Below, piece by piece: positions 11,007 to 23,295 of a stretch of DNA of 23,295 bases (its first letter is position 1; the number at the start of each line of letters is the position of its first letter). Source of the stretch: a virus. The notes under the pieces are model-generated. The model was given only the letters and a program-made list of their open reading frames with translations. It made no database searches and was not told the origin of the DNA. The translations under genes were made by a program, and so were the position numbers. The stretch lies in IMG/VR virus record IMGVR_UViG_3300034064_000092, positions 1-23,295 of that record. One strand, written 5' to 3'.

Positions 11007-13598
11007 ATGGCTAGAGATTTAGATTATACCGTTGGTGTCAATACTCAACCTGCAGTGGCCGGACTTGAAAAATTAAAAGGCACGATTAAGACTACCAGTG
11101 ACAGCTTTGAGAAGTTTAGGAATCTATTTGCCGGGCTAGCACTTGCTTCATTTGTGAGAAGTGCTTATCAAGTAGCCGACAGCATCAGTGAAATTGGTCT
11201 AGCCAGTGGCATGGGCACACAATTTGTCTTGGGCTTTAGTCAGGCTATCAAAGCCAATGGTGGTGAATTAGAATCAGCACAGGCATCATTTGGTAAATTT
11301 GCACAACAAATTCAATCAGCCTTAGGTGGCAACAAAGATGTAATTAAAAGTTTCGAATCCTTAGGCATTAGTCTAAATGATATCGCTACCTTAACAGATA
11401 AAGAAATATTTACAAAGACTATTAGTGGTCTAGCTGGTATGGGTCGAGGTGCGACAGCAACTGCCCTGGCTCAAGACTTACTAGGTAAGAAAATGGCCAG
11501 TGTGGACTTTGCTGGTGTTAATCGCGGACTAAGTGAATATGTTCGTATCGCAGGCTCCAGTGCCGAAGCTGTAGATTCAGCAGGTGCGGCCAATGACAGC
11601 TTTAATGGAGCCATAGCCACCTTACAACAAGAATTACTTAAAGTATTAAAACCAATCAGTGACATGGTTGTTGCCCTTAGTGAAAGTGGTGAATCAATAC
11701 GAAACTTTATCAGCATAGCAGTTAAAATTGGTATGGTAATTGCTACATTTACTGTAGTTGGTAAGGCCGCAAGAGCAGTAGGTGCTATTTTTGGTGAACT
11801 AAAAACTGCTGCGACAGCAGTTGGTAGTGTTGCAACAACAGTCACAAATGGCTTTAGAAATTTTGGTGCTATATTAGAAAATTTAAAATTAACTAGTTTA
11901 GCAGGCGGCTTTAGAGTTATTGGAAATCTATTAAAAGAATTTGGTAGTTGGGCACTTAAAAGTATCCCAGGTGTAGCCGCATTAGGTGTTGCTTTAAGTT
12001 ATATATGGGACACAGCTAAGGGTGCTGTTACTGGTCTATTAGAACTATTAGGCATTTCATCTAAGCAAGATAAGGCCACAGCTGACAGTGCTGCGGCCGC
12101 TAAGAAAGCCGCAGAGGAGAAAATTGCCCAGCAGGTTGAAATAGCCAACAAACAAAAATTATTAAATGCTCAGCGTGTTGAAGAAGAACAAAAATTACAA
12201 GATAAAATTAATGCAGGTGTAGCCAGTGAAAGATCTGCCATTGCCGGCAAACTTGACTCATTAAAACTTAATAATCAAGAACAGTTACGAGCATTTGAAT
12301 TAACAAAATCACTTGTAGGCTTGTCAGAAAGAGAGCGTACAATCAAAGAAGCCACTGCCGATGTTGAAAATCGTCGAATCAGTAGTCTAGCTGAATTAAC
12401 CGCAAGGCAAGCTGAATTACAAAGAACAGTAACTGAAGGTACTGGATCGGCTACTGCCGCACAAAAAGAAGCGGCCGCAGTGGCCAAGGCAGAGTTACCA
12501 TTAGTTGAAGAAGCTATCAAGAGAGTCACTGCTGAATATGAAAAACAAATACCAGCAGTACAAAAACTTGCCGCAGAAAGTTATGATGCCGCACAAAAAC
12601 AAATTGCCGCAGAGAACTTAAAAGCATTTAGTGTAAGTGAAACAACTCGTGCTACTGATGAATTACTTCGCTTACAAGATGAAATGGCAATGATGACATT
12701 GCCTGAAATAGATAGAAAATATAAAGAAATAGAAATCTCAGCTCGTAACAGTGCCAATGCGGCAATTGCCGCTGAGAATGAGCGTCGTCGACTTGCTGGT
12801 TTAGGTGTAATGAGTGAAGCTGAACGAGCAAAATATGTTGAAGCTGCCTCAGTGGGTATGAATCGACTTAAAGATCAAACTAAGGCAAACTTTGAAGCAA
12901 GCCGTAGTTGGAATACTGGTTGGAAGCGTGCATTTAATGATTATGTACAAAATGCTACTAATGCCGCACAACAAGCACAAAATATATTTGCCAAAGCCAC
13001 TAAAGGTATGGAAGATATGATTGTAAACTTTGCCAAGACTGGTAAGTTTGAATGGAAATCATTTATATCGATGATGTTAGAAGAACTATTGCGCAGTCAG
13101 ATACAACAGGTGTTTGCTCAGATGATGGGCAACATGTCAGGCACAATGAATTCATTTACTGGCGGTGGTGGCAATATCATAGGTAATCTATTAGGCAGTG
13201 TAGGCAGTCTATTTGGTGGTGGCTCAAGTGCTGGAGCAACTCCTCCTTTCATGCCAACTCAGAGTAGTTCTAGTAATGTATTCGGTGATCTATTAGGTGG
13301 CATTGGGTCAGGTATTACTTCAGTGTTCTCAGGCATAGGTGATTTATTTGGTGGCTTCTTTGCCAATGGTGGTAACTTAGGTGCTGGTCGTTGGGGCATC
13401 GCCGGGGAAGCTGGTCCAGAGTTAATATCAGGTCCAGCTACAGTAACACCTATGGCGGGTGGCGGAGTTACTAATGTCACATACAACATTACAGCTACCG
13501 ACGCAATGAGTTTTAAACAATTAGTGGCACAAGATCCAGGCTTCATTCATGCTGTGGTAATGCAGGGAGCTAAATCAATGCCCGGAACAAGGAGATAA
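11007..13598 (+). CDS. Tail tape measure protein
   Basis: At 863 residues it follows the chaperone genes, as expected. Hydrophobic stretches occur near residues 38-56 (LFAGLALASFV), 232-260 (KIGMVIATFTVVGKAA) and 315-345 (PGVAALGVALSYIW). A long Ala/Glu/Lys/Gln-rich coiled-coil region covers about residues 350-560. A Gly/Ser-rich part follows, then the signature FANGGNLGAGRWGIAGEAGPELI near residue 783, common at the C-terminus of siphovirus tape measure proteins. The protein sets tail length, fills the tube lumen and leaves during DNA ejection. By the rule of about 1.5 angstroms per residue the tail would be roughly 130 nm; this is a family rule of thumb, not a measurement. Confidence 0.92.
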   Translation: MARDLDYTVGVNTQPAVAGLEKLKGTIKTTSDSFEKFRNLFAGLALASFVRSAYQVADSISEIGLASGMGTQFVLGFSQAIKANGGELESAQASFGKFAQQIQSALGGNKDVIKSFESLGISLNDIATLTDKEIFTKTISGLAGMGRGATATALAQDLLGKKMASVDFAGVNRGLSEYVRIAGSSAEAVDSAGAANDSFNGAIATLQQELLKVLKPISDMVVALSESGESIRNFISIAVKIGMVIATFTVVGKAARAVGAIFGELKTAATAVGSVATTVTNGFRNFGAILENLKLTSLAGGFRVIGNLLKEFGSWALKSIPGVAALGVALSYIWDTAKGAVTGLLELLGISSKQDKATADSAAAAKKAAEEKIAQQVEIANKQKLLNAQRVEEEQKLQDKINAGVASERSAIAGKLDSLKLNNQEQLRAFELTKSLVGLSERERTIKEATADVENRRISSLAELTARQAELQRTVTEGTGSATAAQKEAAAVAKAELPLVEEAIKRVTAEYEKQIPAVQKLAAESYDAAQKQIAAENLKAFSVSETTRATDELLRLQDEMAMMTLPEIDRKYKEIEISARNSANAAIAAENERRRLAGLGVMSEAERAKYVEAASVGMNRLKDQTKANFEASRSWNTGWKRAFNDYVQNATNAAQQAQNIFAKATKGMEDMIVNFAKTGKFEWKSFISMMLEELLRSQIQQVFAQMMGNMSGTMNSFTGGGGNIIGNLLGSVGSLFGGGSSAGATPPFMPTQSSSSNVFGDLLGGIGSGITSVFSGIGDLFGGFFANGGNLGAGRWGIAGEAGPELISGPATVTPMAGGGVTNVTYNITATDAMSFKQLVAQDPGFIHAVVMQGAKSMPGTRR

Positions 13599-13601
13599 GA
13601 T

Positions 13602-13961
13602 ATGTCATTCCAATGGATATTCGATAAGGCAGAAACAATTAGTGTAAACAGTAGACCAGTAGTATTACAGACTATTACTCGTAACAATACTGTTCGTGCT
13701 ACTAATCTCGGCGGAGCAGTTAAACGATACACAGTAAAATTACCAGATGGTATTCCTTACAATCAGATATCGGCTAACATTACTGCCGCTGAAACATTAG
13801 GTCAACATACTTCTAGCAATGTAACAGTACGATTAGATGGTACAGTATATGATACAGGCAATGTTATCTGTACAGTGTTTCCTAATTGGACATTATTTGG
13901 CTCAGGCAATATTAACCAAGTGAGCTGGGATAGCGCATTTGAATTTTATGAGGTAGTATAA
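13602..13961 (+). CDS. Minor tail protein, lambda gpM-like
   Basis: The 119-residue protein follows the tape measure gene by three bases. The sequence is mostly beta strand, with FQWIFDKAETISVNSRPVV and TITRNNTVRATNLGGAVKRY leading into KLPDGIPYN. The length and position match lambda gpM, which acts at the tail tip between the tape measure and gpL. AAGGAGA lies before the ATG. The stop overlaps the next start (TAATG). The family is inferred from gene order and strand pattern. Confidence 0.65.
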   Translation: MSFQWIFDKAETISVNSRPVVLQTITRNNTVRATNLGGAVKRYTVKLPDGIPYNQISANITAAETLGQHTSSNVTVRLDGTVYDTGNVICTVFPNWTLFGSGNINQVSWDSAFEFYEVV

Positions 13962-14551
13962 TGGCTATACAGGACCTAAGCAGTTACTCAAGTATCTATG
14001 CCGCATTATTTGTGCGCATGGACATACCTAACTATGAGGTTTTACGATATAGCACACATTTTGAACCCTATACAGTTACAGAAAGTGATGGCACTTCACA
14101 TAGTTACACAAACTTAGGTACACTTGTAGGTGTCACAGACAACACATTTGGTATTAGAACTAATCCAGAAGAGATTACCATTACCATATCAGGTGTGCCA
14201 TTAACTAATGTTAGTATGGTCTTAGATGAATCGATTAAAGGCAGTCGAGTAGAAGTTCGCAGACAATATTTCCGTGGTAATAACTATGCGGCTATCAACA
14301 CGCCGATAGTCAAGTTTAAAGGAATAGTAAATAACTATAATGTTGTAGAAGGATGGCCTGATTCATCTACTCGTGTAGGCACCTGTACTATTAGCTTTCA
14401 ATGTAGTACATTAATTGACCTAATGTCAGAGAAACGAGCAGGGCGTAGAACAAATCCCATGGATGAGAAGACATTCTTTCCAAATGATTTAGCTATGGAT
14501 CGTGTACCCACATTAGCAGGTAGTAGCTTTAACTTTGGCGCACCAAAATAA
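13961..14551 (+). CDS. Minor tail protein, lambda gpL-like
   Basis: The 196-residue protein is beta-rich and contains GTLVGVTDNTFGIRTNPEEITITISGV followed by RVEVRRQYF, the pattern of tail-tip proteins related to lambda gpL and DUF2163. Its end, RRTNPMDEKTFFPNDLAMDRVP, then an NFG-containing tail, is a motif I associate with aquatic phages. Members lie between gpM- and J-like proteins, as here. Only two cysteines are present, so the Fe-S cluster of lambda gpL is unlikely. Starts with overlap on the preceding stop. No gpK or gpI homologue follows. Confidence 0.7.
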   Translation: MAIQDLSSYSSIYAALFVRMDIPNYEVLRYSTHFEPYTVTESDGTSHSYTNLGTLVGVTDNTFGIRTNPEEITITISGVPLTNVSMVLDESIKGSRVEVRRQYFRGNNYAAINTPIVKFKGIVNNYNVVEGWPDSSTRVGTCTISFQCSTLIDLMSEKRAGRRTNPMDEKTFFPNDLAMDRVPTLAGSSFNFGAPK

Positions 14552-14561
14552 GGATTAATAG

Positions 14562-15350
14562 ATGAGCGGATTTCTAGACAGTATTGTAGATGTAGGCAAA
14601 GGCTTGTGGAACTCAGTCACAGGATCAGGTATTGGTGGTACTCTAGTTAGTACTTTATTAACTGGTCTAGCACTTAACCAGGTTACTAAATCAATTAACA
14701 AAAGTTCTAATACCACTGCTTCACAAACACAAACAGCACAGGTAGAAACCGGCAATAAAATAACACTTAGTCCGGCTACAGAGAATCGTGTGCCTATAGT
14801 CTATGGTGGTGCTATGCTATCGGGCATAGTCACAGACGCTCGCATGAGTGCTGACAATCAGAAGATGACCTACTGCTTAACCATATGTGAAGTTACTGGC
14901 ACAAAGATGTCAGATGGCTTAGCCAGTGAATTCCTATTTGAAGATGTCTATGCTAATGGCAATCGAATTGTGTTCCGAGCAGATGGTATTACTGCTAGTT
15001 ATATGATAGACGCAGATGGCAATGTGGATAAGAGTATCGACGGATTAATTAAAGTTTATCTATACAAGAATGGCAGTAGTAGTCCGGCAATATTAGACAA
15101 TTATACTGCTGGTGCAACCAGTAATGCTAATACCTACATGCCAGGCTGGACAAGTAATCATACTATGAACAGTCTAGTATTTGCCATAGTAGAAGTAACC
15201 TATAATAAAACAAAGAATGTTACAGCATTGCCTAACATCTCATTTGCTATTCAAAATAATATGACTATGCCAGGTGATTGTTTATGGGATTACATGACCA
15301 ATACCCGTTATGGCGCAGGTATTCCACCTTCGGAGATTAAAGATGCATAG
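14562..15350 (+). CDS. J-like tail-tip hub protein, N-terminal half (split gene)
   Basis: The 262-residue protein has a hydrophobic N-terminal helical segment (about residues 20-45), then ENRVPIVYGGAMLSGIVTDA, DNQKMTYCLTICEVTGT and WTSNHTMNSLVFAIVEVTYN, and ends with WDYMTNTRYGAGIPPSEIKDA. This is the N-terminal part of the J-like host-specificity hub known from aquatic phages and lambda-like tails. In related proteins I expect the chain to continue past NTRYGAGI into a SL(D/E)QLNVYS stretch. Here it hits TAG at 15348. In the +1 frame the next codons read SLEQLNVYSN, the expected continuation. The gene is therefore shortened, by a natural split, a frameshift site or a sequence error. RBS AAGGAT. 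Confidence 0.8.
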   Translation: MSGFLDSIVDVGKGLWNSVTGSGIGGTLVSTLLTGLALNQVTKSINKSSNTTASQTQTAQVETGNKITLSPATENRVPIVYGGAMLSGIVTDARMSADNQKMTYCLTICEVTGTKMSDGLASEFLFEDVYANGNRIVFRADGITASYMIDADGNVDKSIDGLIKVYLYKNGSSSPAILDNYTAGATSNANTYMPGWTSNHTMNSLVFAIVEVTYNKTKNVTALPNISFAIQNNMTMPGDCLWDYMTNTRYGAGIPPSEIKDA

Positions 15351-18093
15351 TTTAGAACAATTAAATGTCTACAGTAATGTAAGTATTGTCACTGGTGATG
15401 AAAGACCACCTAGTATTACAACGACTCCAGCTAATACCTCAAACTTAACTTCAACTGTTTATAGTACAGAAGATACTAGTCATAATTTGGTTGTTCCGTT
15501 TACCATTGATTCAGCTATATCTCTTAATATAATTTATACTGTAAATGTGTCTATGTATTCGGGTGCTACTGTAACTTGGCCGACACAAGATTTAAGTTTA
15601 ACCTATACAAACCCCAGTACTGGTATATACCGAGTTAGTGGAATAGACACCATAACAAAATGGAACACACAAAAAAATCCATTAGTGTTTATGGGTCCAG
15701 ATAGAAATGGAAATTTAACATATAAGGCTAATATATCTGTTGGAGGATCAACTATTAGTTGGAATAACAATGCTATTCTAGCCGCTACCGCAGAAATTAA
15801 TACCGGAATCCTTCTCGATCAAGACTATGATGAAGACACCCCTATAACATTTAACTGCGGATTATTAATTACTGATACAATAAGTTCATCATATAGTGTA
15901 GCCATTAGTAAAAGTAACAATGCCGCTGGCGTATTGTCAAGTACAGGGGTTGGCGGAACTAGTACCTATACAGCAAATGTTTTAACTATTGCTGGTACTA
16001 GAACACAGGTCAATAGTCGACTTGGCAATATTACTTTAACTCCAGGAGAAGGCTTTGCTAATGATTTTGCCTTAACCTATAATGTTCTCAATGTTACATC
16101 AGGTGAGCCAAATAGTGCTCAACAGGCAATGAAAATAAGATTTATATCTGATGAAGTTAACACTAACACCTTAACAAATCAAATTTATAATCAAGATGAT
16201 CCTATTACATTTGACAGTGGGTTAATTATTACCAATGCGTCAACTGTTGCCACATATTCATTAACTATTAGTAAACCGAGTAATGCCACAGGTGTAATGT
16301 ACAGCACAGGGGTAGGTGGTACTAGTAGTTACGCAAATAATACTTTAACTATTACCGGTAACAAAGGTCAGATTAATACTAGATTAACTGCTATAACTTT
16401 TGTCCCCACAGCAGGTCCTTACACAAATTTTACTTTAACCTACACTGTGACTAATTTATTGTCCGGACAAGTAGAGGTTGCTACTCATACTATGACACTT
16501 GATTATCTAAGTAATAATATCTCAAATATGAATGTGTCAAGGACATACACACAAAATTTACATAATAATTTATTTGCAACTAATATTCCAGCAATAACAG
16601 AAGATATTCGTAGACCAACCGCGCCATTTGTAGCAGATGCTAATACAGCATTATTATTACACTTTGATGGTAATGTTACTGATAGTAGTAATAATGCTTA
16701 TACTCCTGTAACAAATACTTCGGTAAATTTTGATAGCGTCTATAGACAATGGGGTACAGGTTGTGCTAGTTTTGATGATACATCAGTATTAAAATTTAAT
16801 AATGATGCCTTAAAGAATAATAGTTCAGCGTTCACTGCTGAATGTTGGGTTGATCCTAAAGCGGTTGAAACTAATGGCGGAGGTATTTTTTTACTCGGTC
16901 CTTACACTGTATCAGCCGGCGTAACTTCGAGCAATCAGATACGAATATTTTTCCCTAATGGTAGTTCTTATGTGGGACCAGTTATAGAAAGTAATAAATT
17001 TACACATATTGCTGTGACCTATAATAATGGTAATTGGTATGTTCATATTAATGGTACAATGAAATATACAGTTTATCAATTAATATCTGGAACAGAACCA
17101 ACCTGGAATGGTATATTTGTTGGTGTATCACACATCTGTAGCATTGACGAGTTCCGTTATTCAAAAGGAATTGCAAGATATTCTAATTCTAATTTTGCTG
17201 TTGAATCATATAATGTACCTCAATATACTATTAGTTTACAACTATCTACTGATATCGGATTTATCAGTACAGATACCTATGAAGGCTATTTTAATAAATT
17301 AAATTATAATACTACTACACGCACTTATACATTTACAGGCTATCGTGATGAGTGTAACAGTATATTTGCTGATTTACAATTTTATCCTAATAAAAATACA
17401 ACTTCAAGTGCGGTTATTACTTATTCTCAAAGTAAAAATGGATTTTTCCAATTCGATACAACTTTTAATTTAACAGGAATAGTTGATACAACTGCAATTC
17501 CGGGCACTGGGTTAACAACTTATACTGCTGGCACATATTCATTAACACCAACATTCCAACAACTATATTACTTAAAATGTGATGCTATGGTTATTGGTGC
17601 TGGTGGAACGCCTGGCTCTAATTATATTGTTTATCAACCAGGCACTTCTAATGTTTTAATTACTTTATATGGTGGAGCTGGTGGTGCTGGTAAATTAACT
17701 ATATTCACATTATTAAATTTACAGTTTACAAATACAATATATGTTGCTGCAGCTGGCGGTGGAGCAAGTTATATTGGATCTTATTCAAGTGCTGGCGGAT
17801 CAAATGGTAGCAATGGAACTCCACAAGCTGGAGGCTCAGGTGGAGCAAGTGCTACTGGGTTTGGTGGTGGATCAGGGACTAGTAATGGAGCGTCAGGCGG
17901 TGGTGGTGGACAACTCGGAGCAGGAGCAAATGCGCCAAACGGTACTGGCGGAACAGGTATATCAAGTGACTTTACCGGAACTGCTGTTACATATTCAAAA
18001 GGCGGAGTAAGTGCCTTAGGTGGCGGAACAGCTCCAACGACTCAAGGGTCGGGCAATCAACCAGGTTTAATTGTAGTTAAATTTTATGAATAA
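15343..18093 (+). CDS. Large tail adhesin inserted in the hub gene
   Basis: This 916-residue protein begins with a scrap of the hub (MHSLEQLNVYSNVSIV) and then changes character. Residues 162-400 hold two tandem repeats of about 120 residues, each starting Y(D/N)(E/Q)D(T/D)PITF and containing a STGVGGTS motif, with an Ig- or cadherin-like look. Residues 436-621 match the laminin-G/concanavalin-like fold (ALLLHFDG, CASFDD, FTAECWVDP, THIAVTYNNGNWYVHING, SIDEFRYSKG). The C-terminus from about 750 is glycine-rich and ends PGLIVVKFYE, as phage fibre glycine-rich domains do. A glycan-binding tail fibre is inferred. I start it at ATG 15343, with GGAG seven bases upstream, overlapping the hub stop by eight bases, over ATG 15310. 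Looks more AT-rich than its neighbours. Confidence 0.8.
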   Translation: MHSLEQLNVYSNVSIVTGDERPPSITTTPANTSNLTSTVYSTEDTSHNLVVPFTIDSAISLNIIYTVNVSMYSGATVTWPTQDLSLTYTNPSTGIYRVSGIDTITKWNTQKNPLVFMGPDRNGNLTYKANISVGGSTISWNNNAILAATAEINTGILLDQDYDEDTPITFNCGLLITDTISSSYSVAISKSNNAAGVLSSTGVGGTSTYTANVLTIAGTRTQVNSRLGNITLTPGEGFANDFALTYNVLNVTSGEPNSAQQAMKIRFISDEVNTNTLTNQIYNQDDPITFDSGLIITNASTVATYSLTISKPSNATGVMYSTGVGGTSSYANNTLTITGNKGQINTRLTAITFVPTAGPYTNFTLTYTVTNLLSGQVEVATHTMTLDYLSNNISNMNVSRTYTQNLHNNLFATNIPAITEDIRRPTAPFVADANTALLLHFDGNVTDSSNNAYTPVTNTSVNFDSVYRQWGTGCASFDDTSVLKFNNDALKNNSSAFTAECWVDPKAVETNGGGIFLLGPYTVSAGVTSSNQIRIFFPNGSSYVGPVIESNKFTHIAVTYNNGNWYVHINGTMKYTVYQLISGTEPTWNGIFVGVSHICSIDEFRYSKGIARYSNSNFAVESYNVPQYTISLQLSTDIGFISTDTYEGYFNKLNYNTTTRTYTFTGYRDECNSIFADLQFYPNKNTTSSAVITYSQSKNGFFQFDTTFNLTGIVDTTAIPGTGLTTYTAGTYSLTPTFQQLYYLKCDAMVIGAGGTPGSNYIVYQPGTSNVLITLYGGAGGAGKLTIFTLLNLQFTNTIYVAAAGGGASYIGSYSSAGGSNGSNGTPQAGGSGGASATGFGGGSGTSNGASGGGGGQLGAGANAPNGTGGTGISSDFTGTAVTYSKGGVSALGGGTAPTTQGSGNQPGLIVVKFYE

Positions 18094-18103
18094 GGATTAA
18101 GAG

Positions 18104-19780
18104 ATGGCAACTGAACTACCATACAGATATAGAATTAATGGCACATTAAACACCAGTGATGGTGTTTTAGCCAACATGGAAAAGTTAGCCAACAGTACCG
18201 CAAGTTGGATTAGTTTTGATATGTTTACCGGCAAGTGGGATGTCGTAATCAACAAGGCAGAGGATGTTAGTGCCGCATTTGATGACAGCAATATCATTGG
18301 CAGTATTCAATTGAACATCTTAGGTTTAAAAGAAATGTACAATGCTGTTGAAGTACAGTTTCCACATAGTGACCTAAATGGACAAAAAGATTATATCCAT
18401 ATTAGTATTCCTCCTGAAGATAGACTACCTGGTGAATTAGACAACACCTTAACTATTAACTATGAACTTCTTAATGATCCAGTACAAGCACAGTTCTTAG
18501 GACTTATCGAATTAAAACAATCAAGACTTGATAAGACTATTGTATTTCGTGCTGACTACAGCAAGATTAATATCCCAGCTGGAGCAGTCATCTCAGTTAC
18601 CAACACAACATTCGGTTGGACAGCAAAACAATTTCGTATTGTTACTGTGAAAGAAATTAGTGATAATGATGCCTTACAAACAGAAATTACTGCTATTGAA
18701 TATAATATTAATACCTATTCAACAGATGATTTATATAGATATATCCGTAGCAATGCCACAGGTATTGTAACATTTGGTGCTATTGGGCAACCAGATGCTC
18801 CACAGGTAACTAAATTAGAAGGTGTTAGTCGTCCAGGTATTATTATCGAAGCTGATGTGCCAGGTGGATTAGTTAATGGTATGGAATTTTGGTTAACTCG
18901 TGAAACTACTATAAGTTCCGATGATCTAAGAAAATATGATTTAATCGGCACTGTATATGGTACTGGCGGAACTAACCTTGTGCAAGGCGATACTGTTGAA
19001 ATTGATTACGATACACTCGACACTGGTAACTTGTATGTTAAGGTTAGAGGTATCAACGGTGACATTACAGGTCCATATAGTACACCAAGTGGATTAATTA
19101 ATTTTAATGCTAAACAGGTAACTGATGCTATTGGTGCTAACACCGCAGTTAATAATTCTGCAGGTAATTCTATTACTGGTTTAGTTGGAACAAATGCTCT
19201 ACTATGGTTACTAAGCCAATTAATGTCAGGTGGTAATACCAGCAACACAGCGGCTACTATTAGCAGTCTCGGTTCATTGTTTGGCATAACTGGTAATATT
19301 GCTAATACTGTAAGTGGCACATTACAAGGTGTAGGTAGTGCCGCTCAAGCCGGAAATAAATTAATGATTATTGCTGAGGCTGGCACAGTAAAAAATATTG
19401 TTAATGCTCCGGGGTCAGGATTGACATTATATACAAAAACATTTGTACCTACAATCTCTGGTACTTATAAATTAGATGTTATTGTAGATCAAAATAATTC
19501 AGGAGCACGAGGTGGTCGTGGATCAACTTGGGGTGAGCCTTCTGATATTGTAGCTACGGCAGCTTATATATATAACGGGGCAACAGAAATACAACATGCA
19601 AATTCAGGTGGGGTTGGCGCCCACTCTTGGACTGACTTTGCTTTTACAACTATTTTTTCATTAACAGCCGGAGTAACTTATACATTAAAGTTTTATGCAG
19701 ATGTTATTACAGCTTCTAATCCTACACAAAATTGTGATTTTGATATCAGTTGGAATATCTACACCATTGCTATCGCATAA
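18104..19780 (+). CDS. J-like tail-tip hub protein, C-terminal half (split gene)
   Basis: The 558-residue protein starts at LPYRYRINGTLNTSD and carries the rest of the hub: WDVVINKAEDV, FDDSNIIGSIQLN, YNAVEVQFPHSDLN, LNDPVQAQFLGLIELKQSR, FRADYSKINIPAGAV and YSTDDLYRY, all of which I would expect downstream of the SLEQLNVYS segment in an undivided J-like protein. A fibronectin type III-like module follows at about 226-330, a hydrophobic helix near 355-370 (LVGTNALLWLLSQLM), and a beta-rich C-terminal domain from about 415 that looks like a separate adhesin cap. Its RBS region AAGGATTAAGAG repeats the one in front of the N-terminal half. The hub would need to be assembled from two chains. Confidence 0.82.
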   Translation: MATELPYRYRINGTLNTSDGVLANMEKLANSTASWISFDMFTGKWDVVINKAEDVSAAFDDSNIIGSIQLNILGLKEMYNAVEVQFPHSDLNGQKDYIHISIPPEDRLPGELDNTLTINYELLNDPVQAQFLGLIELKQSRLDKTIVFRADYSKINIPAGAVISVTNTTFGWTAKQFRIVTVKEISDNDALQTEITAIEYNINTYSTDDLYRYIRSNATGIVTFGAIGQPDAPQVTKLEGVSRPGIIIEADVPGGLVNGMEFWLTRETTISSDDLRKYDLIGTVYGTGGTNLVQGDTVEIDYDTLDTGNLYVKVRGINGDITGPYSTPSGLINFNAKQVTDAIGANTAVNNSAGNSITGLVGTNALLWLLSQLMSGGNTSNTAATISSLGSLFGITGNIANTVSGTLQGVGSAAQAGNKLMIIAEAGTVKNIVNAPGSGLTLYTKTFVPTISGTYKLDVIVDQNNSGARGGRGSTWGEPSDIVATAAYIYNGATEIQHANSGGVGAHSWTDFAFTTIFSLTAGVTYTLKFYADVITASNPTQNCDFDISWNIYTIAIA

Positions 19781-20366: not shown

Positions 20367-23295
20367 ATGGCCTATACCATTGAAGTTACTGACTTGGGCA
20401 GTAACCCTAATGTCTCTACGACATCAAACACTATTACTATCACAGAAATTACCACGGATGTTAATGTAGAGAACCCAAATACAGTTATTGAAATTACTAA
20501 TAACACAATTGCACCTTTTGAAATCTCTTATAACAGTGTGGCTGTAGTAGGTCCTCAAGGACCACAGGGCATTCAAGGTAATGTAGGAGCTACCGGTGCT
20601 ACTGGTGCAACTGGACCACAGGGCATTCAAGGTATACAGGGAATACAAGGAATACAAGGTAATGTAGGTGCTACTGGTAGTACTGGCGCTACTGGCTCTA
20701 GTGTAGTATTGAAAGGCAGTGTTAATTTAATTTCTGATCTAAACAATATTGTAGGTCCTACAACTGGTGACTTATATGTAGTTTTAGAAGATGGTAATGG
20801 TTATGTCTACGATGGCAGTGCTTGGGATAATGTTGGACAGATTCGTGGTCCGCAGGGCATTCAGGGTAATGTTGGCGCAACTGGCGCAACTGGCAGTACG
20901 GGTGCTACAGGCCCACAGGGCATTCAAGGTAATGTTGGGGCTACTGGCGCAACTGGTAGTCAGGGTATTCAGGGCATTAAAGGCGACACCGGAGCACAAG
21001 GGATAGAGGGTAATGTTGGCGCAACTGGCGCAACTGGCTCACAAGGAATACAAGGCATACAGGGAATTCAGGGTAATGTTGGTGCCAAAGGCGATAAAGG
21101 CGACACTGGTAATACTGGTGCACAAGGTGCTAGTCTTACAATTTTAGGAACAGTCAGCAATGTAGCTAGTTTACCAGCAACTGGTAACATTGGCGAAGCA
21201 TATATTATTGCTACTACAGCTAGTGAACCCGAAGCAGGTAATTTATATGCTTGGAGTTCTACTTCAAGTAACTGGGCAGATGTAGGACAAATTGTAGGTC
21301 CAAAGGGTGACACAGGTGCTACTGGCGCTACTGGTGCTACTGGTGCTACAGGCCCACAAGGGATACAGGGCATTCAAGGCATTCAGGGAAATGTTGGTGC
21401 TACTGGTAGTACTGGTGCTAAAGGCGATAAAGGCGATACTGGTGAGCAAGGCATACAAGGGATACAAGGCAATGTTGGTGCAACAGGTTCACAAGGCATA
21501 CAAGGCATTCAAGGTGATGTTGGTGCTACTGGTGCTACTGGACCACAAGGGATACAGGGAAATGTAGGAGCTACTGGTGCAACTGGTGCAACTGGTGCAA
21601 CTGGTGAGCAAGGCAATGTTGGTGTTGCTGGAACTAGTATTAGTTCTGCTGAAATAGATCAAGACACTGGTAATTTAATTATTACATTAACTAATACTAC
21701 TTCTATAGATGCTGGATTAGCAGTTGGTGATACAGGACCACAAGGCATTCAAGGTAATGTAGGGGCTACTGGTGCTACAGGACCACAAGGCATTCAAGGT
21801 AATGTTGGTGCTATTGGTGATACAGGACCACAAGGCATTCAAGGTAATGTAGGGGCTACTGGTGCTACAGGACCACAAGGCATTCAAGGTAATGTAGGGG
21901 CTACTGGTGCTACAGGACCACAAGGCATTCAAGGTAATGTAGGGGCTACTGGTGCTACAGGACCACAAGGCATTCAAGGTAATGTTGGTGCTTCTGGGCC
22001 AGTATTTGGTGATCCGGGATCATTTAGTACCACAACTACTGTTACTACAACTTTTGATGGTCAAGTTAGATTTAACAATGCTACTGTAGGCAGTGTAACA
22101 CAAGTGGCTATTGGTGATTATGGTAACGCTAATGCTTGGGCTTTGGCGCTAGCTGGCAAACAATTAATTATCAGTGAGACCAATGGTCAATTATTAACTA
22201 TATTCACAGTTAGTACTGTAACCTATACCATAGCAGGCGGCTATTACTATTATCTATTAGCAGTATCAGCAGGTCAAGGATCTCGTCCAGCTAATGGGCA
22301 ATCTATTAGACTTACTCCAACAGCCACAGGCGCTACTGGTGCAACGGGTGCCACTGGTGCCGCAGGTGATCCAAGCGGTATTTCAGCTTTACTCAGCAGC
22401 AATGTTACTATAGCCAATCCAGGCAATGCCCGATATAGACTTAATAGTAATGTAGCCGCCAGTGTAACTACAATGGCTATTAGCACAACTGGTTATAGTA
22501 GTGCTGACTTATCTAGTTGGATTGCCAGTTGGGATGACAGCACCAGCACTGTAAAAGGCACATTACAATTTAATGACAACGCATATAACAGTGCCTTTTA
22601 TCAAATCTCTAGCATAGTTAACAATACTACCTGGTATCAAGTTAATTTAACCTACACTGGTGGTAGTTTAGGTACTATTGGTGCCGGTGATAATAATCGA
22701 TGGATTAATTTTTATCGCACTGGTGATCGCGGCGAACAGGGCATTCAAGGTAATGTCGGAAATACTGGTGCTACTGGCGCACAAGGCATTCAAGGTAATG
22801 TCGGCGCAACTGGTGCCAATGGATTAAGCACTCTAATTAGTGATACTAGTCCTGAACTTGGTGGCAACTTAGATTTAAATGGTTTTCAAATACAAGCCAG
22901 TGTTGGATCATTAATTCTTGGCAGTGATGATATTATTTTAGGTGCTGGTGATAGTGGTGTAACACCTGAAGTAGCCATATCTACTCTTGGTGGTCAAGGT
23001 TTATTCTTTGATACTAATCAAGGTGTCAACACTGGATCATTTACTATTAATTCAGGTGTTAATGGTGATATTGAAATTACTCCTAACGGTACTGGCCGTA
23101 CAGTAATTACCAATGGTACTACTAATGGATTTAGTGTTGGTTATTTAGAAATGCCTCAGGTAGCTGCTGGCAATGTAACACTTGCTCTCAGTGACAGTGG
23201 TAAACACTATTATTCAACAGCCAGCAGCCCAACTACTATTACTATTCCTAATAATGCCAATGTGGCATTTGCTACAGGCGCAGTGATTACTGTGG
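20367..23295 (+). CDS. Collagen-like tail fibre (3' end beyond window)
   Basis: The frame is open from ATG 20367 (AGGAG upstream) to the window edge, at least 976 residues. Residues 1-61 form a non-collagen N-terminal domain. Gly-X-Y arrays of the [15 protein letters not shown] type occupy about 62-111, 161-254, 311-422, 454-545, 655-669 and 789-820. Globular modules lie between them: two related ones at about 112-160 and 255-310 (GSVNLISDL and [10 protein letters not shown]), and two longer beta modules at about 546-654 and 670-788. The last part, from 821 on, contains [13 protein letters not shown] and looks like a standard fibre C-terminal region. Trimeric collagen-like fibres recognise the host surface. 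The gene lacks a stop in the window. Confidence 0.85.
21735..22004 (+). repeat. Six 45-bp tandem repeats in the fibre gene
   Basis: The start of the unit (GGACCACAAGGCATTC) recurs at 21735, 21780, 21825, 21870, 21915 and 21960, exactly 45 bases apart. Each unit codes for [15 protein letters not shown] or a close variant. Differences between units are few (GTAGGG or GTTGGT, ACTGGTGCT or ATTGGTGAT), so the array looks recently expanded. Confidence 0.95.

Follow-up and report, generated by a model that had tools for sequence, protein, structure and literature searches.

The window analysed here is a stretch of 23,295 nucleotides of viral DNA (IMG/VR record IMGVR_UViG_3300034064_000092), in which three open reading frames, termed N-hub, M and C-hub, follow one another on the plus strand, each in a different frame. 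They are located 3' of the tape measure gene and of distal tail/gpL-like genes, that is, at the position of a hub gene. The features of this region are the following (related loci are designated by L and a number):

11007..13598, plus strand: tape measure protein, a context gene (Pfam Tape_meas_lam_C, 1.4e-20)
13961..14551, plus strand: tail protein at the position of lambda gpL (phrog_2048 tail protein, 6.5e-18)
14562..15350, plus strand: N-hub, first part of a J/pb3-like hub, 262 aa (homology; dN/dS about 0.1)
15332..15335, plus strand: putative GGAG Shine-Dalgarno site of M, within the S-E-I codons of N-hub (sequence)
15343..18093, plus strand: M, putative adhesin gene, 916 aa (8-nt overlap of its start with the N-hub stop, ATGCATAG)
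15346..15378, plus strand: M leader HSLEQLNVYSN, predicted hub helix that is absent from N-hub and C-hub (alignment to L064 260-271)
15415..15837, plus strand: first beta domain of M, residues 25-165 (HMM)
16780..17088, plus strand: Laminin_G_3 (ConA-like lectin) module of M, residues 480-582 (Pfam, 4.2e-10)
17590..18090, plus strand: glycine-rich distal tip of M (drop in identity between the window and L012)
18093..18096, plus strand: AGGA, Shine-Dalgarno-like site of C-hub, 7 nt 5' of the ATG (sequence)
18104..19780, plus strand: C-hub, second part of a J/pb3-like hub, 558 aa (profile against pb3; dN/dS)

As judged from gene order, the product of 13961..14551 probably carries hub domain I. 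N-hub ends at 15350 with NTRYGAGIPPSEIKDA followed by its stop codon, TAG (15348-15350), which overlaps the start of M, and C-hub begins at 18104 with MATELPYRYRINGTLNTSD. The M frame is open from 15310, and the preferred start is the ATG at 15343, with GGAG seven bases on its 5' side and the N-hub stop overlapping it; read from this ATG, M has 916 residues and the N-terminus MHSLEQLNVYSN. The initial annotation had placed two hub pieces here, with the peptides at which the hub ends and resumes, and between them a 916-residue adhesin with its own ribosome-binding site, and its coordinates, peptides and gene length were all correct when checked against the sequence. Further downstream, a large collagen-repeat tail fibre gene (20367-23294; Pfam Collagen, 1.3e-58) runs out of the window; its counterpart in L001 encodes 1031 aa and is followed by a gene for an adhesin-like protein of 480 aa. 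In addition, the N-terminus of the tape measure protein (11007-13598) is unlike that of its relative at L010:2550-5054 despite identical surroundings of N-hub, M and C-hub, which indicates that the tape measure gene is mosaic too.

Homology to hub proteins is found on both sides of M. N-hub matches J of the Methylophilaceae phage P19250A (38.7%, 2e-32), and in tblastn both halves match this protein in order, at a distance of about 88 bases from each other; both also match in order the single-chain J of L017, which has 2128 residues. At the profile level, N-hub matches residues 262-478 of T5 pb3 (9e-4) and C-hub residues 525-717 (7e-24), while the single-chain hub of L064 spans pb3 464-716 unbroken. 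Both halves show homology over the HDII-HDIV region of pb3 and P19250A J, and going by the domain order given in the literature, the cut would fall between HDII and the part comprising HDIII and HDIV. Within C-hub, the hub homology is limited to about 18104-18793. The C-terminal part of C-hub (18794-19780) stands at 56% to L006, compared with 91% in the hub part, and forms a second variable region. Neither half received a name from Pfam, PHROGs or NCBIfam at the cut-offs of these databases.

Viral contigs were scanned with the two halves and with their respective alignments, and the loci with both halves were classified by profile search. Three hub states occur at one site among the related contigs, which derive from uncultivated aquatic phages: single-chain hubs, with the halves in frame and 73-118 nt apart (at least 74 loci), two-gene hubs without an insert (at least 8 loci; 7 rows in the tree sets) and the order N-hub, M, C-hub (at least 55 loci; 43 tree-set rows once near-copies are removed). 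These state counts include near-copies and are not frequencies in nature, since each scan gave the best 80 loci. In the two-gene locus L059, the second gene starts with MKSLTELNTYSDTSVSYTDEALGAGQVLANRYQINGLVDT, which combines the M leader and the start of C-hub in one chain, and no fusion of N-hub with M or of M with C-hub was found in the 81 loci that carry the first domain of M (same-contig duplicates included). Among cellular genomes, both hub parts lie in one frame in 13 of 15 loci, the other two being cut off, and none of the 15 has a split hub; plasmids gave no match. When 50,697 phage records were searched at the protein level, few of them matched, and none of these is an isolate with a split hub; the isolate relatives among the matches listed were single-chain only.

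The expectation of the initial annotation that the two halves are consecutive parts of one protein, normally made as one chain, is therefore borne out: both fit P19250A J, L017 J and pb3 in order, and the uninterrupted gene that it proposed to seek in related phages was found in many contigs and in isolates. The opposite outcomes, homologues that are always separate genes or halves from unrelated families, disagree with these single-chain homologues of one family. As side observations, the hub-bearing contig L182 is binned as Candidatus Nitrosotalea (an archaeon) and is likely a misbinned phage contig; M of L048:6576-8351 is apparently truncated relative to its close relative L045, probably by a local frameshift in the contig; and in-frame insertions occur in the single-chain hubs L112/L113 (roughly 75 residues, in the N-hub part) and L021 (Kolga; a long one, before the YG motif).

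The position of the cuts was examined on an AlphaFold2 model of the single-chain relative L064 (49 sequences; most of residues 70-480 at a pLDDT of about 90), which serves as a stand-in for N-hub and C-hub of the window. This model has the hub fold (Z 20-22), with scores of 21.8 against Sf11, 21.2 against GTA, 20-21 against T5 and 20.1 against lambda J. On L064, the tail of N-hub corresponds to residues 235-259, the M leader to 260-271 and C-hub to residues from 281 onwards, without overlap. The first cut is in the loop 244-257, which joins helix 234-243 to helix 258-268; the second, past the strand 271-276, is in the hairpin turn 277-281. The M leader aligns with helix 258-268 and, given these cut positions, the model predicts that M includes a helix of the hub, and probably a strand as well. 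Moreover, a profile of the 11-residue leader had its best match in the gap between the N and C parts in 41 of 68 distinct single-chain hubs, with about 5% expected by chance. The AlphaFold2 model of M itself (mean pLDDT 68, mostly 80-94 at residues 21-420) has a helix at residues 4-10, followed by confident beta domains to about residue 420. The start of the leader is conserved among M proteins, L7 and N8 being invariant even in distant ones, and the leader is slow-evolving in several pairs (L054/L070, L051/L053); it is short (about 11-20 residues) and has diverged in the clades of L049, L091 and L096. In the clade of L091, L093, L096 and L108, M starts with MSTIQDLN or MNSIIDLN, and N-hub has a roughly 24-residue extra tail past its usual end (L091:2266-2341).

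That the adhesin opens with the next hub segment, as first proposed for this locus, agrees with the alignment of the leader to L064 260-271. The view of a hub cut open with a cassette inside is likewise retained, but not that of a hub in two chains: there are two cuts, the hub piece that they delimit is part of M, and three chains would thus make up the hub.

The first beta domain of M was detected by HMM in every testable M gene, including those of the distant L091 clade, and in no other open reading frame of the loci; it is a probable hub-proximal docking domain. The distal part carries surface-binding modules, Laminin_G_3 in the window and Gly_rich_2, FG-GAP_2 and Lcl_C in relatives (n=25: Gly_rich_2 in 8, Laminin_G_3 in 5, FG-GAP_2 in 4 and Lcl_C in 1), and from these domain types we infer that M is a receptor-binding adhesin. 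When the M model was searched against the PDB, all matches were of generic Ig and cadherin-like types, and no reverse transcriptase (RVT_1) of a diversity-generating retroelement was found in 14 records, all of them fragments.

Nucleotide comparisons locate the variation within M. The window and L005 share 87% up to 15408, have no blastn match from there to 18090 and share 87% thereafter, and against L025 and L006 the matches have their limits at 15365-15366 and 18100-18122. Against L012, M is mostly 80-100% identical (80-93% just before the glycine-rich tip) until the last 480 bases or so, where identity drops to 55-59%, and the start of C-hub is 99% identical. In the pair L054/L070, dS is 0.19 for N-hub and 0.16 for C-hub and 0.9-1.35 for M, whereas in L071/L102 the relation is reversed (0.50, 0.70 and 0.17-0.21, respectively); since dS is discordant in both directions, M seems to have recombined and not merely to evolve fast. 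These comparisons support an exchange of M distal modules between close phages, with sharp limits near the ends of M. The exchanged adhesin may set the host range, and such a swappable adhesin in the middle suggests a built-in way to change the grip of the phage on its host. N-hub and C-hub are under purifying selection, with dN/dS of 0.03-0.14 in the computable pairs and, for C-hub, of 0.05-0.11 in the pairs that involve the window.

The tree requires at least five changes among the three hub states. In it, 57 rows of split and nested single-chain hubs form one group (94/95), the three-gene L091 clade has the single-chain L069 and L115 as its sister (97/97), and single-chain and two-gene hubs intermingle (98/98). 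The hub had originally been read as split by the inserted cassette; the adhesin does lie in the cut, but the insert is not simply the cause of the split, since the first cut is present without any adhesin in 8 loci. Nor is the insert recent, as M has its own first domain, conserved throughout the testable M genes and confined to them within the loci. The tree itself is silent on gain versus loss; as the two three-gene groups have a homologous first domain in M, the simplest reading is that M was gained once, and that losses and a re-joining of the hub came later.

We consider it likely that the locus encodes a J/pb3-like hub in three chains, in which the M helix would complete the hub fold and anchor the adhesin. 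N-hub would supply the first part of the fold, M one helix and the next strand while bearing the adhesin, and C-hub the remaining fold. Ribosomes ending N-hub would most likely restart at the overlapping start of M, aided by the Shine-Dalgarno site in the last codons of N-hub, and C-hub would be translated from its own start and Shine-Dalgarno site. In the particle, the N-terminal helix and strand of M would occupy the gap between N-hub and C-hub, so that the adhesin would be fixed to the hub at the hairpin. Since the genes on either side of M are conserved hub genes and the leader and first domain of M stay constant, recombination could replace the distal binding modules and leave the hub untouched. 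A further proposal, whose chances appear evenly balanced, is that the adhesin is locked in by donating a missing element to the hub core, by analogy with donor strands in pilus subunits, and that the hub gene has thereby become a stable site at which exchangeable binding modules can land, the insert having been lost and the hub re-joined repeatedly in the course of evolution.

The junctions bear on how three chains could be made. In the three-gene loci, the overlap between the N-hub stop and the M start mostly measures 4 bases (41 loci) or 8 (11 loci), and an overlap of this kind could point to programmed frameshifting that fuses N-hub to M, fully or partly. However, the frame change from N-hub to M varies (-1 in 44 loci, +1 in 11), all three frame relations (0, 1 and 2) occur from M to C-hub, no slippery heptamer was found in the stretch with both frames open in any of 63 loci, and the start codon and Shine-Dalgarno site of M are conserved. 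Frameshifting was rejected on the frame counts and the lack of slippery sites, and is very improbable. Translational coupling, with translation restarting after N-hub, would fit better, since the N-hub stop overlaps the M start and the Shine-Dalgarno site lies in the last codons of N-hub. When the comparison is limited to hubs with Glu-Ile/Val/Leu near the junction, GGAG covers the junction Glu codon in 43 of 51 split hubs versus none of 15 single-chain hubs, a contrast whose p-value of 2e-9 is overstated by related rows and by some single-chain matches on a neighbouring motif; elsewhere in N-hub of the split forms, GAG accounts for 56 of 387 Glu codons (14%). C-hub mostly follows M after a gap of 9-10 bases with AGGA, and AGGA lies 5' of C-hub in 44 of the 55 three-gene loci.

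Phage adhesin genes often adjoin the hub gene, and M could accordingly be an ordinary tail fibre attached elsewhere, with a hub of two chains (N-hub and C-hub) and the leader as a remnant of the former gene; this segment is short and variable in places, and in two-gene phages the hub evidently works without the body of M. We regard this as unlikely, given that distant M proteins preserve the leader, which evolves slowly in several pairs, that without it the hub would miss a helix present in nearly every single-chain relative, and that two-gene hubs retain this helix on the C chain. M might instead be a non-structural factor, for instance an assembly aid whose gene lies within the hub operon, but its domain types (LamG lectin, Gly_rich_2, FG-GAP) and the fast exchange of its distal modules are typical of receptor-binding proteins, which makes such a role quite improbable. 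The existence of single-chain relatives, finally, could raise the suspicion of an assembly or sequencing error or of a decaying hub gene; this was rejected, and its probability is negligible, because purifying selection acts on both hub pieces and an identical junction recurs in numerous contigs that are independent and come from different samples.

Few parts of long-tailed phages are as well conserved as the hub core. In the three-gene loci, this core is cut at a fixed site, with an adhesin gene in the cut, apparently over a long evolutionary time. If the first helix of the adhesin does complete the hub, as the three-chain reading proposes, the locus would represent both a natural system for module exchange and a new mode of mounting receptor-binding proteins; the order of events can be tested on the single-chain, two-gene and three-gene relatives.

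One hub subunit can be built of one to three polypeptides (PMC13243795), and HDII-HDIV lie in one polypeptide in the solved hubs that have been compared (PMC10721106), whereas in the window HDII, HDIII and HDIV are not contained in one polypeptide. With three open reading frames in three frames, the window hub is a homologous split variant and not a standard J/pb3-like member. The literature on split or interrupted J-type hubs, in a search whose coverage excluded most subscription journals and which is no proof of novelty, describes multi-chain hubs and not an adhesin in the cut; multi-chain hubs are known already, and a cut HDII-HDIV chain with an adhesin inside appears to be new within the literature searched.

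Host specificity protein J of P19250A (KX815270) is the closest isolate homologue of both halves among the matches listed, but it is a single chain with no insert. Both hub pieces match consecutive parts of T5 pb3 (7ZHJ, 8HQZ), whose fold is shared by L064; however, pb3 is one chain, uninterrupted at the cut site, and the receptor-binding protein of T5 is located at the end of the central fibre and not between hub parts. The hubs of the Roseobacter GTA (6tba, Z 21) and of Megatron and R4C (8gtc, Z 21) have the same fold, and the GTA hub is also spread over two proteins, but its division separates HDI from the rest (PMC10721106) and does not fall inside the HDII-HDIV chain, and an adhesin gene in the division is not described. 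The hub gp25 of Alishewanella phage LSH1 is likewise linked with polyglycine-rich antireceptor domains (PMC13243795), although these are fused to the C-terminus of a single-chain hub. In lambda, the hub also consists of several polypeptides, with L, I and J together as the counterpart of T5 pb3 (PMC10721106); however, lambda keeps HDII, HDIII and HDIV in one chain, gpJ, the C-terminus of which is the receptor-binding domain, whereas in the window the gpJ-like chain itself is cut and the putative adhesin lies in the cut.
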